Of a stretch of DNA of 54,382 nt, positions 7,801 through 54,382 are shown piece by piece; the first letter of the stretch is position 1; the number at the start of each line of letters is the position of its first letter. The DNA lies in the NCBI GenBank assembly GCA_017446045.1, contig JAFSRP010000035.1, positions 1 through 54,382 on the forward strand. The letters run 5' to 3'. The notes under the pieces were generated by a model, which worked only from the letters and a program-made list of their open reading frames with translations, was not told the origin of the DNA and searched no databases. The DNA comes from Lachnospiraceae bacterium (lineage in GTDB: Bacteria; Bacillota; Clostridia; Lachnospirales; Lachnospiraceae). The position numbers and the translations under genes are program-made.

Positions 7801-7819
7801 AAACGGGCTGAAAAGCGAT

Positions 7820-7893
7820 GGGTTCGTAGCTCAGCTGGGATGAGCGTCCGCTTGACGTGCGGGAGGTCGTGGGTTCGAGCCCCGCCGGACCCA
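7820..7893 (+). tRNA. tRNA-Val (anticodon GAC)
   Basis: The 74-base gene folds into a standard cloverleaf. The acceptor stem GGGTTCG pairs with CGGACCC (one G-U), followed by discriminator A at 7893. The anticodon arm TCCGC-TTGACGT-GCGGG places GAC at positions 34-36, and the T arm is GTGGG-TTCGAGC-CCCGC. The CCA end is not encoded (GAA follows the discriminator), so it must be added by CCA-adding enzyme. Confidence 0.96.
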
Positions 7894-7897
7894 GAAA

Positions 7898-8005: not shown

Positions 8006-8698
8006 TTAAAAATCTTCATTGCCTTCCATGATCACGGACACCAGGCTTTCCACCTGCGACTCATCCGGAACACAAGTGCCGGATGTGAAGGAATAGGAAT
8101 AAGTGTCCGAACAGAAAACGATACGGTGAATGCCGTCTTCATTGCCCTGCATATTGATATCGATACCTTTGCTGTTTATATCATATGTGTTGTCGTAGGT
8201 ATTATAATCGCCGCTGATATCATCCTGACCCTTGCCTTTCCGCAGACGGAATGCCTCTTCCCCTTCTGCATCGGCATAGATCACTTCTATGATGGTATCC
8301 CCCATTGACCGGAACTGTTCCGCCTGATATCCGTCGATCACTGCCGGAAGGGTAAACAGAAATCCCGTGGCAGCTTCGGCGTCTTCCAGGGTCTCATGAT
8401 CGGACCACGGATTCACCATCCCGACCATCTGCTTCGTCTCTTCCTCTGTCTCCGGAGCTTCCTCGACTGTCGTTTCTTCTTCCGCTGCCGGAACTTCCTC
8501 GATGGTCGTTTCTTCCTCCGCTGCCGGAGCCTCTTCGGCAGTCGTTTCTGCTTCTGCCGGCTTATCCGCGGCAGCGGCCTCCGCCTCTGCCTGGACCGCC
8601 GTCTCCGCTGCGGCCGGCTCGTCCTTCGGCACCGCAGTGCAGCCTGCCAGAACTGCCATACATCCTATAGCCAACACGATCATCATTCTCTTTTTCAT
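8006..8698 (-). CDS. Lipoprotein with Glu/Ala/Thr repeats and DUF4367-like domain
   Basis: A 230-residue predicted lipoprotein: basic start MKKRMM, hydrophobic core, lipobox VLAGC near residue 20. Residues about 25-88 are low-complexity, including degenerate 12-residue repeats of the form APAAEEETTIEE. The C-terminal 140 residues (from MVGMVNPWSDHETLED) look like the extracellular DUF4367-type domain, with EVIYADAEGEEAFRLRKGKG and ISGDYNTYDN as its most typical stretch. The domain is common in Clostridia surface lipoproteins; its ligand is unknown. AAGGAGG precedes ATG 8698. It has its own promoter and terminator and so stands alone. Confidence 0.78.
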   Translation of the reverse strand: MKKRMMIVLAIGCMAVLAGCTAVPKDEPAAAETAVQAEAEAAAADKPAEAETTAEEAPAAEEETTIEEVPAAEEETTVEEAPETEEETKQMVGMVNPWSDHETLEDAEAATGFLFTLPAVIDGYQAEQFRSMGDTIIEVIYADAEGEEAFRLRKGKGQDDISGDYNTYDNTYDINSKGIDINMQGNEDGIHRIVFCSDTYSYSFTSGTCVPDESQVESLVSVIMEGNEDF

Positions 8699-51426: not shown

Positions 51427-52001
51427 AGCTTTATATCTGCCAGTATTTCCTGCAGACAACGGTCGAAATCATTGTTGATATATCGTCTGGTAATACCGGC
51501 CTCCAGGAGCTTCTCCTCCGAGAAATCCTCCGCATCCGCCAGAAAGCGCCGGCACACCTCGGCGTAGTGAGGCTGCGGCTCTTCCATCTCTCTCCGCACA
51601 GCCCGGATCAGCCGTTCCCCGTCTTCCACTTCAATATAGATCGGGATGAGCGCTTCTTCCCCGAAATATCGTTTCAGATGCAGATAGGACTCCAGTGTAC
51701 CAGGCATCAGGTAATCGCCGCATGTAAGGTCGATCTGCCCGTCGTCGACCGTAGCGTAGGTCCAGGGACCGAATACCGTATCATAGGTCCTTGATTCGAT
51801 CAGCCTGCCTTCCGCGGCATATGCTCCGATCCTCTCCGGATCCGTAAAATGGTAAGCTGTGCCATCTTCCTCATGCTCCCTGCGGGGCCTGGTCGTATAC
51901 ATGACATAGGTTCTGAGGGACGGCCTGGCCTGCAGGATCGCCCGGTACAGGGAATCCTTGCCTGAGGCGGACTTACCCATTACGCAATAGATCTTTCCCA
52001 T
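51423..52001 (-). CDS. Guanylate-kinase-like protein
   Basis: A 192-residue P-loop kinase. The Walker A motif is MGKSASGKDSLYRAI. YVMYTTRPRREHEEDG corresponds to the GMP-binding TTRxxRxGE stretch of guanylate kinase, DGTAYHF and the YATVDDGQ segment also match, and RREMEEPQPHYAEVCRRF occupies the lid region. It is shorter and more divergent than housekeeping Gmk, with Asp after the P-loop lysine. In many Firmicutes thymidylate kinase occupies this position beside holB. Its true nucleotide is not certain. Its start overlaps the stop of the 52001-53902 gene. Confidence 0.82.
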   Translation of the reverse strand: MGKIYCVMGKSASGKDSLYRAILQARPSLRTYVMYTTRPRREHEEDGTAYHFTDPERIGAYAAEGRLIESRTYDTVFGPWTYATVDDGQIDLTCGDYLMPGTLESYLHLKRYFGEEALIPIYIEVEDGERLIRAVRREMEEPQPHYAEVCRRFLADAEDFSEEKLLEAGITRRYINNDFDRCLQEILADIKL

Positions 52002-53902
52002 CAGGGCATTCCTCCCACCTGCGGGGCATCGCCCGGACCGATCTGCTCCGCGCCGTCGGGCGGCGCGATCACGTTGACGTCTTCAGACCCGCCGCCGGGA
52101 CCGAGGGCAACCTCCGGATTCTGCGTCTCCGCTGCGGTATCTTCAGTGGGTGCCGGCTGTCCTGCTACTGCCGTATCATAATCTTCGACGTCGGGAACGG
52201 TCGTTTCCGGCATCGGGCCGCCCGGACCCGCCATAGTAGGCCATTCCGTCGCACCCGCGGGGTGATCTCCGTCACCGCCAGGACCCTGTGCAGTCTGGTC
52301 ATTGCCAGGACTCAGGATCGTCACCTGGCTGCCCGAATCCGTTGCTTCCTCTCCGCCGTTGATGACTGTGGAGGTATCCGGATCATCCTCCTCGAGAATG
52401 ATCGGCGTAACGCTGACCGCGATCGGGGTTGATATCCGTGCGCGCAGGCTTACGAACTGAGTAGCGCCGGCATGGGTACGCTTCGCGATCACGGTGTTGC
52501 CCTGGATCCCGTACAGCTCATATCCGCCGTCGACACCGGTCGCGTCCTGCAGGAAATCGATATCTCCGTACGTGTTCATGCGAAGGATCCCCGAGAAACC
52601 GTCTATGTCCCTGAACTCCGCGAACATTTCTCCTGTGCCGTAATCATAATGCATGTTGCCGGTACTGCCGTAAAACTCCGAGGAGATCAGCTCGACAGTC
52701 CCGTCTGCTGCCGACTCACGCAGGAGCCTTGAACGGGTGTTGCCGAAAGCACTGCCGTTCTCAAAACTGTACTTGTAACCGCCGACCGTGACCGAGGTCT
52801 TGGGCGCGACGCCCAGGATCTCACCGGAGGCTGAAAGACGGTAGGTGAAATTGCCCGCCGTAAAGCTGTCCGTCGCCATTGTCACCGGATGTCCGCCCTC
52901 CAGCATCAGGGTCGCCCGTCCGGGAGAGTACTCCAGATCGATATAATAATTGCCGTCCTCCGGGAATGCCACCACTGTATGGTCTTCGGTAAAGGACTGG
53001 GTCCGGTGCAGCGCTGTACCGTCAAACCAGTAGACCGCCGGCTGCCCGTTCTCTCCGGTAATGACTTTGTAGCCGGTCACGCCCTCCGCGGCCAGCTCGC
53101 GCACATCCATACCAGGCCGCATACGGAACAGCTTGTTGTTGATGGCGTCCAGGATCCCGCCCGGATCATCATTGCTCCGCGCCAGGAAATAAATATACCC
53201 GTCATGGATCGACATCGTATACAGCGAAGAATACTGGGGATTGGAACTGCCGCCCAGCTGGTGGGAAAGGGATTCGGTCGTCTTCTTGTACATGACTGTA
53301 CCGAACTGCCCCAGCTTTTTGGACTCATCCAGATAAGCCCAGAGCGCCTTGGTCTGTACCAGTCCCGGATAGTCCTCACTCGTATCAGAAAGGTCCGGCC
53401 GGTAACCGGGATTGTAGCTGATCCGCTGTGCCGCACCGTCCGTTCCAAAGACATAGTTCATTGCGCCTTCGGAATAATTGCCGGTCGCCGCATACCCCTC
53501 AGGTCCGAAATAATAAAGATGACCATCCAGCTCGGTCCAGATGTCACTTAAGATCTCATGCCCGTCAGTGGTCTTTTTCTTCTGTTTGTCGTCATACAGC
53601 ACAGACTCTGCGGGGGTCAGAACATATATCAGGCCTTCCCGGCGAGTAAGCAGTCCGTACTGCTCCTCCTCCAGGTCCAGCGAAAACTCGCCTTCTGGTG
53701 TCTCGTCCTCGGCTGTTCCGGTACTTTCCTCTGTATTGGACCTGCCATTGAGAAAAGAGAAAATGCCGCTGTTATCTTTGATATACATGTATACAAAGAT
53801 CACCATCAGTACCGCGATCACGACCAGCGAAAGTGCTGTGACCAGGCTGACGGCGTCCTTCCATCCAGTATCTCTTCTGTTTTTTCTGCGATTCGATGCC
53901 AT
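52001..53902 (-). CDS. Membrane-anchored DUF5050-like surface protein with Pro/Gly/Thr tail
   Basis: A protein of about 633 residues. A basic cytoplasmic start (MASNRRKNRRDTGWKD) leads to one transmembrane helix at about 20-45. The extracellular part has many YYFGPEGYA, GYIYFLARSN and NYYIDLEY repeats, suggesting a beta-propeller-like domain. The last 130 residues are rich in Pro, Gly, Thr, Asp and Ala, resembling a spacer or wall-spanning region. The function is unknown. The start is uncertain because no SD stands before ATG 53902; the frame continues to 53974, with ATG 53920 as an alternative. It heads the gmk-like-holB-ricT-trmN-rsmI operon. Confidence 0.7.
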   Translation of the reverse strand: MASNRRKNRRDTGWKDAVSLVTALSLVVIAVLMVIFVYMYIKDNSGIFSFLNGRSNTEESTGTAEDETPEGEFSLDLEEEQYGLLTRREGLIYVLTPAESVLYDDKQKKKTTDGHEILSDIWTELDGHLYYFGPEGYAATGNYSEGAMNYVFGTDGAAQRISYNPGYRPDLSDTSEDYPGLVQTKALWAYLDESKKLGQFGTVMYKKTTESLSHQLGGSSNPQYSSLYTMSIHDGYIYFLARSNDDPGGILDAINNKLFRMRPGMDVRELAAEGVTGYKVITGENGQPAVYWFDGTALHRTQSFTEDHTVVAFPEDGNYYIDLEYSPGRATLMLEGGHPVTMATDSFTAGNFTYRLSASGEILGVAPKTSVTVGGYKYSFENGSAFGNTRSRLLRESAADGTVELISSEFYGSTGNMHYDYGTGEMFAEFRDIDGFSGILRMNTYGDIDFLQDATGVDGGYELYGIQGNTVIAKRTHAGATQFVSLRARISTPIAVSVTPIILEEDDPDTSTVINGGEEATDSGSQVTILSPGNDQTAQGPGGDGDHPAGATEWPTMAGPGGPMPETTVPDVEDYDTAVAGQPAPTEDTAAETQNPEVALGPGGGSEDVNVIAPPDGAEQIGPGDAPQVGGMP

Positions 53903-53992
53903 GATACAATAGTTTAACATTAAATATATGCCATGACAAGATTGAGAACGTTTAACAAATCTGGTCAAATACATTAAGGAAATAACGGAAAA

Positions 53993-54017
53993 GGCGATAT
54001 CCCGAAAGGATACCGCC
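53993..54017 (-). terminator. Stem-loop between the repeat array and the 52001-53902 gene
   Basis: GGCGATATCC (53993-54002) pairs with GGATACCGCC (54008-54017) with one mismatch over CGAAA. On the minus strand TTTT follows. It would stop transcripts coming leftward from the repeat array. Confidence 0.5.
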
Positions 54018-54055
54018 CTGTAAACTGCATTGGTGGAACAAACTAAAATAAAAAA

Positions 54056-54382
54056 GCCTCAGGCCAGAATCCTGGGTGCAAGGCAACTTCAGATCGCGAA
54101 GCTATGAGCGATCTGGACTTTAGCGGGTTCGCTTCTGGCAAAAAAACTGAAAATAAAAAATGCCTCAGGCCAGAATCCTGGGTGCGAAGCACCTTCAGAT
54201 CGCGAAGCTATGAGCGATCTGGACTTTGGCAAGTTCGATTCTGGCGAAACAAACTGAAAACTAAAAAAATGCCTCAGGCCAGAATCCTGGGTGCGAAGCA
54301 CCTTCAGATCGCGAAGCTATGAGCGATCTGGACTTTGGCAAGTTCGATTCTGGCGAAACAAACTGAAAACTAAAAAAATGCC
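54056..54382. repeat. Tandem array of about 109-bp structured repeats (three copies and the start of a fourth)
   Basis: Copies begin with GCCTCAGGCC at 54056, 54162, 54271 and 54380, giving spacings of 106, 109 and 109. Copies 2 and 3 are identical by eye; copy 1, at the array edge, differs at several sites. In copy 2, GCCAGAATC (54169-54177) pairs with GATTCTGGC (54237-54245) and encloses three hairpins: GGTGC/GCACC (54181-54193), CAGATCGC/GCGATCTG (54196-54221) and GGACTT/AAGTTC (54221-54236). A spacer ending in an A run (T run on the minus strand) separates units. The array continues beyond the window. No credible gene lies in 53903-54382. Confidence 0.9.

Follow-up and report, generated by a model that had tools for sequence, protein, structure and literature searches.

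The tandem array that closes one contig of a Lachnospiraceae genome appears to consist of tRNA-derived trailer units: each unit begins with an inverted copy of a tRNA T arm, carries two hairpins kept by compensatory change, and ends with a copy of the 3' end of the tRNA gene it follows. The plan is that of the RtT repeats of Escherichia coli, yet the Rfam model of that family finds no match in the units; we therefore read the element, with a probability of about 0.6, as a new tRNA-trailer element of the RtT type that is not a member of RF00391.

The window analyzed is 54,382 nucleotides long and is the entire contig C8 (1-54382) of its genome, here G000, a 2.26-Mb assembly in 63 contigs that is 79% complete. 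Tandem Repeats Finder places the array at 54037-54382 with a period of 109, 3.2 copies and 94% matches, which bears out the 109-bp repeat described in an earlier note on this DNA. Three units lie on the minus strand: copy 1 at 54056..54139 (99.9 bits by R1, a covariance model built from five Phe units only), copy 2 at 54162..54245 and copy 3 at 54271..54354 (113.2 bits each). Copies 2 and 3 are 100% identical over 109 bp; copy 1, at 91%, is decayed and has lost a pair in two stems. Since the window is a whole contig and the array lies at its end, three units are the minimum and the array stays unclosed; since the contig stops there, its tRNA-Phe gene is inferred from relatives, with copy 3 the nearest to it and copy 1 the farthest. 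By the gene order in the relative G001, the last five letters (54378..54382, minus strand) may be the start of another tRNA-end copy or of tRNA-Phe itself.

On the sense strand beyond the array, a minus-strand hairpin at 53991..54019 (13 bp in the predicted fold, then a short T-run only) is a candidate terminator, unflagged in a consensus scan. Next to it, also on the minus strand, stands a gene of 657 aa (52001..53974) with no Pfam match, which identifies this locus in relatives whether or not they have a unit there (tblastn E of at most 1e-70). Nor does Pfam recognize either of two ORFs, of 70 and 72 aa, that cross the array. ARAGORN calls only a tRNA-Val in the window (7819-7894), as does Rfam, and neither a tRNA gene nor any Rfam family is called in the array there. 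Elsewhere, the window holds a 36-bp tandem repeat at 8452-8554 (2.9 copies, 82% matches), and its first 100 positions (1-100), read by eye, open in the end of an IS3-type transposase gene.

The ends of the units identify their origin. Read on the minus strand, copies 2 and 3 end in GATTCTGGCCTGAGGC, identical in 16/16 positions to tRNA-Phe of G001 and made up of the 3' strand of its T arm followed by the 3' strand of its acceptor; in copy 3 this segment is 54271..54286, and the corresponding segments are 54162-54177 in copy 2 and 54056-54071 in copy 1. The earlier note was thus wrong to deny the unit an acceptor end. It had also noticed a motif followed by a T-run on this strand, which holds for copies 2 and 3 (GCCTGAGGCA and the T-run) and fails for copy 1, where GCCTGAGGC is followed by T and the A is missing; what looked to it like a built-in end signal is tRNA-Phe's own 3' end and the T-run behind it. 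As GCCTGAGGCA plus T is that end, the unit is tRNA-derived on both sides: the start of copies 2 and 3, GCCAGAATCGAACTTGC, agrees in 16/17 positions with the reverse complement of the tRNA-Phe T arm (0/500 shuffles do as well). This inverted arm occupies 54338..54354 in copy 3, 54229-54245 in copy 2 and, altered, 54123-54139 in copy 1, all on the minus strand. Recurrent matches to the first 17-18 nt of the unit used as query sit at the ends of tRNA-Phe(GAA) genes at the loci checked, one of which (L015) is cut at a contig end.

The correspondence is with the particular tRNA that precedes the unit. Against 81 pooled tRNA sequences, the own tRNA is the best fit for the 3' end in 6/6 units that have such an end, and best or tied for 7/9 inverted arms, the exceptions being G004-Phe and G001-Glu. 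The direct repeat formed by tRNA end and unit end, T-run included, is 24 bp long in G001; in G004 it spans 24 positions, one of them mismatched. Among 93 ARAGORN tRNA records from the loci of G000, G001 and G004 (a set in which the Glu and Asn genes of G000 each appear twice and from which three G004 tRNAs, out of 95 listed, are missing), a copy of the 3' end within 700 nt is confined to tRNA-Glu in G000 and to tRNA-Phe in G001 and G004.

Relatives supply the context that the contig lacks. When one unit was compared with 99 related genomes, near full-length matches came from G001 (goat rumen; 82% over 109 nt) and G004 (roe deer duodenum; 86% over 84 nt), with two short ones outside the genus; against 25 genomes of the genus there were many further matches of 15-22 nt. 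G001 and G004 belong to the same genus as the window, and in both a single unit, as against at least three in the window, directly abuts an intact tRNA-Phe gene. The gene of 657 aa has relatives beside tRNA-Phe in G001, G013, G011, G024, G012 and G023 (tblastn E 1e-70 or better), and at this locus the last five have no unit; tblastn found no relative of it on the G004 contig or at the other tRNA-Phe of G000, on contig C52, which has no unit either. Two further tRNA-Phe contexts may be recorded: G021 carries a different short palindromic repeat, GATTGCGAGAGTACGAAGTACGGAGCAATC and variants, three times after tRNA-Phe (L022, about 1630-1890), and on C25 of G000 (1-1520; L007) a fragment of an SRP54-like gene runs into tRNA-Phe at a junction that is not clear by eye, possibly an assembly chimera.

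The element is not tied to tRNA-Phe. R1 finds a sole further unit in G000, at C62:2054-2144 (E 3e-6), after tRNA-Glu(TTC) and with tRNA-Glu ends. A third relative, G024, has two tRNA-Glu units in succession, the first complete and the second partial; it came from a looser pattern, whose matches in 16/25 genomes of the genus are mostly those expected by chance, and was chosen by eye for its perfect stem, the tRNA check covering 10 loci only. After tRNA-Glu of G001 lies a related element that has the inverted arm and hairpin 2 and lacks the tRNA-end copy. Reading by eye of 18 tRNA-Glu contexts in 17 members of the genus gave no unit in the 13 contexts other than those of G016, G011, G000, G001 and G024. 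In G016 (L193) the contig ends inside the unit, as it does in the window; such arrays may break assemblies. In G011 (L190) only an inverted T arm and acceptor strand follow the terminator-like hairpin of the tRNA, with neither core nor 3'-end copy, and we propose that this is a reduced or a starting form. As read from the sequence, a terminator-like hairpin stands between tRNA and unit at the Glu loci, so that transcription of the unit would there need read-through. All units that could be placed (Phe in G001 and G004; Glu in G000 C62 and G024) follow their tRNA in the same direction.

For copies 2 and 3, the four-way junction proposed earlier for every unit is indeed the fold of lowest energy, whichever strand is folded: -36.8 kcal/mol on the plus strand (z -3.69) and -34.9 on the minus strand (z -4.22), with 0/200 shuffles as stable. 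Copy 1 on its own does not fold into the junction (z -1.35 and -1.69; 20 and 10 of 200 shuffles as stable), which agrees with the mixed support that the earlier note drew from its variation. Within the units, hairpin 1 lies at 54290..54302 in copy 3 and 54181-54193 in copy 2, and hairpin 2, framed in the sense direction by GTCCAG and CTGAAG, at 54305..54330 and 54196-54221, all on the minus strand; the conserved letters around the hairpins are GTCCAG, CTGAAG and AGGATTC. An alignment of six distinct units (A3), fitted to R1, has 10/26 pairs changed on both sides, in 15 cells as against 4.8 +/- 1.9 after shuffling (0/500 reach this), and sliding the partners by 1-3 columns leaves at most 6 cells; the changed pairs include 4/5 in hairpin 1 and 5/8 in hairpin 2. 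The signal is weaker in an unfitted alignment of Phe units only (3 pairs, reached by 72/500 shuffles; 4 cells, by 15/500). Judged by these compensatory changes, the structure of hairpins 1 and 2 is evidently under selection. In the outer stem, 87% of cells still pair; its support is weaker than that of the hairpins, and the pairing is in part explained by the tRNA origin of both its sides. Homologs that vary without keeping their stems had been named as the sign of a plain repeat; what the homologs have is this partly tRNA-derived outer stem and two hairpins that change and still pair. Wobble cells number 5 in sense and 4 in antisense and so favor neither strand.

The known hosts of RtT are E. 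coli and its relatives, and the source cited for it is work by Bosl and Kersten in 1991. The trailers of E. coli tyrT and tyrV, where rttR is annotated, contain four Rfam RtT units (RF00391; 132.9-137.5 bits). All four carry the T arm of tRNA-Tyr in inverted form (19/22, scoring 16 where 500 shuffles of the spacer reach no more than 12), and their last segment is the 3' end of tRNA-Tyr. With 14 further regions of strain K-12 included there are 11 Rfam RtT matches, found also after lysT, lysW, lysY, lysZ, lysQ, lysV and proK; four of the lys matches begin inside the tRNA gene. Among K-12 trailers of at least 40 nt, 12/35 copy the end of their own tRNA (0/200 shuffles each), and 6 of these 12 also have an inverted arm at no more than 3/200 shuffles, a level that leuT reaches without a copy; the regions examined cover only part of the K-12 tRNAs. 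The 12 include the trailers of argQ, argZ and argV (L226), which have no RtT match at gathering score.

The two elements are thus alike in several respects: both lie after tRNA genes of several types and in their direction, both close several hairpins with an outer stem, both copy the 3' end of their own tRNA, both have the inverted T arm (in E. coli, the tyr units and some others) and both occur in tandem, in E. coli at tyrT. They differ in sequence and host. The Lachnospiraceae core is about 84 nt with GTCCAG/CTGAAG, against 130 positions for the RtT core; one belongs to Bacillota and the other to Gammaproteobacteria; and the copied end in Lachnospiraceae has no tRNA-encoded CCA. The RF00391 model gives no match in the window at gathering score, none in window positions 54000-54382 or the locus L048 at E values up to 10, and none at gathering score in L089, L134, L092, L049 and L050, while the E. 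coli control (L177) gives four. For RtT-family RNAs beside Asn and Lys tRNA genes, the part of one report available to us gives Northern signals and describes release from tRNA transcripts (PMC4986893). E. coli 3'ETS-leuZ, a tRNA 3' trailer acting as a functional RNA according to the portion consulted of PMC6191717, is annotated in K-12. It is alike in being a functional RNA from a tRNA trailer; it differs in being a single trailer that pairs with small RNAs, and the end of its tRNA is not copied in the leuZ trailer (score 6). Neither the present element nor an inverted T arm in RtT is described in the titles or opening abstract lines of the open-licence papers searched.

Convincing units are confined to one genus among the genomes searched. 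With R1, 8/397 genomes of the family have matches at E up to 0.1, and with R2, 4/392 of the order at E up to 0.05 and 4/397 of the family, all weak apart from the own genome; the loci of these weak matches (L040-L046, L187) have no tRNA. A strict pattern finds only the own genome among the 397. Within the genus, R2 matches 7/25 genomes at E up to 10; neither the G003 locus (3e-4) nor four weaker ones have a tRNA. Weak members may be missed, since the filters were tightened whenever more than 40 genomes were searched. A pattern for the exact 26-nt hairpin has no match in viral or genome contigs; when relaxed, it finds 3 viral stretches, none with a tRNA nearby, and 15 genome stretches (in a collection of some 84,980 species by its own description), of which 12 have no tRNA nearby. 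The other 3 retain both hairpins and have a tRNA no more than 600 nt away; they come from the Lachnospiraceae MAGs RGIG3678 (goat rumen), RGIG4309 (roe deer duodenum) and SUG126, which are G001, G004 and G024 and not extra genomes. Two other candidates were set aside. A scattered palindromic repeat of the REP or MITE type does not fit the own-genome BLAST, in which, at E values up to 10, only six fragments of 14-21 nt match beyond the array; three of these fall at tRNA-Phe genes (twice on C52, once on C25). A hammerhead-like reading of GUC...CUGA finds no ribozyme among the Rfam matches of the window array or L048, and the core letters presumably do not fit.

Predicted folds of tRNA and unit as one transcript suggest how the two might interact, namely by an exchange of strands in which the acceptor stem re-forms with the unit's copy and the T arm is taken up by the inverted arm. 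The 5' acceptor strand pairs with the unit's copy in 4/4 Lachnospiraceae cases (7/7 nt each), and in 3/4 the inverted arm also takes the T arm as its partner (16, 15 and 13 of 18 nt in G001-Phe, G000-Glu and G024-Glu); in G004 the T arm pairs with the unit's copy instead. In E. coli, both exchanges are predicted for tyrT and tyrV (2/5), and lysQ, lysV and proK re-pair the acceptor only. Under a looser criterion both exchanges appear in 2/58 tRNAs without a unit and, for each case, in 4-9 of its 100 shuffled trailers. Compared with separate folding, the gain in energy beats all 100 shuffles in 5/6 cases; in G004 it is matched by 20/100. All these predictions carry the caveat that a tRNA folds before its trailer is made.

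The scenario that we favor runs as follows. Units lying downstream of tRNA-Phe and co-directional with it would most likely be transcribed as a 3' extension of the tRNA precursor, so that host T arm (inverted), two covarying hairpins and host 3' end would follow the tRNA in one RNA. The unit could fold alone, its inverted arm pairing with its 3'-end copy, or could exchange strands with the tRNA, the copy rebuilding the acceptor stem and the inverted arm capturing the T arm; in competing with tRNA 3' maturation it would slow or redirect it, an effect that we consider less likely than not. The unit might then be released as a small RNA, as described for RtT. Units would multiply by recombination between the direct repeats of the tRNA end; the array probably grew in this way, since copies 2 and 3, on the tRNA side, are identical and copy 1, at the far end, is decayed.

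A second perspective places the driver in mobility: a miniature DNA element would insert at tRNA 3' ends, the direct repeat being the trace of a tRNA-targeting recombinase acting in trans, and the array would record repeated insertion at one site. The att sites of tRNA-targeting integrases are likewise direct repeats that start in the T loop and stop where the tRNA ends. The 24-position repeats with their T-runs, the common core at two different tRNA genes and the relatives that have the neighbor gene and no unit are all compatible with this idea. The unit differs from an att site in that it lacks integrase and cargo, and has an inverted T-arm copy, covarying hairpins and a 109-bp tandem period, into which no gene fits; it is absent from 50,697 phage and 72,556 plasmid records. 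Moreover, the repeat begins in the T loop of each host tRNA with letters specific to that host, so that a mobile element would need its ends re-templated at each site. We consider mobility improbable, though the strongest competitor. Somewhat less credence still goes to a neutral VNTR, in which a chance duplication of a tRNA end would expand and shrink by slippage or unequal recombination and do nothing. Identical copies beside a decayed one, and single units in relatives, are what it predicts, and the E. coli-type repeat is itself listed, in the part seen of PMC2658671, as an rtT RNA VNTR of 175 bp between two strains. Because relatives have one unit and the window at least three, a VNTR component, which the earlier note had offered, is real; but neutrality sits poorly with compensatory change in hairpins 1 and 2 of units at two tRNAs, with a core common to Phe and Glu, and with the same plan in E. 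coli RtT.

Far less probable than either is a structural DNA element, a cruciform or a protein-binding palindrome acting as DNA and not as RNA. Both strands fold about equally well, and the wobble cells barely distinguish them; but the placed units follow a tRNA in its direction, and BLAST finds no scattered copies in the own genome. The RtT-type reading has its own difficulties: the RF00391 model does not match, inverted arms are best or tied for the own tRNA in 7/9 only, the T arm is captured in 3/4 folds, G001-Glu has no tRNA-end copy, G011 has the inverted arm only, and copy 1 has lost pairs. Among the options that the earlier note had listed, a tandem small-RNA locus nevertheless fits best, given the covariation of hairpins 1 and 2 and the likeness to RtT, although the note had denied the tRNA derivation.

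A wider and more doubtful extension of the RtT-type reading, to which we would assign a minority chance, is that such trailers belong to a general bacterial class, spanning two phyla or more, of elements that exchange strands with tRNAs; the unit would turn the precursor into an enlarged tRNA-like fold and the core would move between tRNA genes, re-templating its ends for each host. A second family, unrelated in sequence to RtT and built on the same plan in gut Lachnospiraceae, makes the trailers a comparative problem. What the two have in common (the inverted T arm, the own tRNA end, internal hairpins and possible strand exchange) is likely to be what matters, and how the units keep their ends matched to whichever tRNA is host becomes a testable question.
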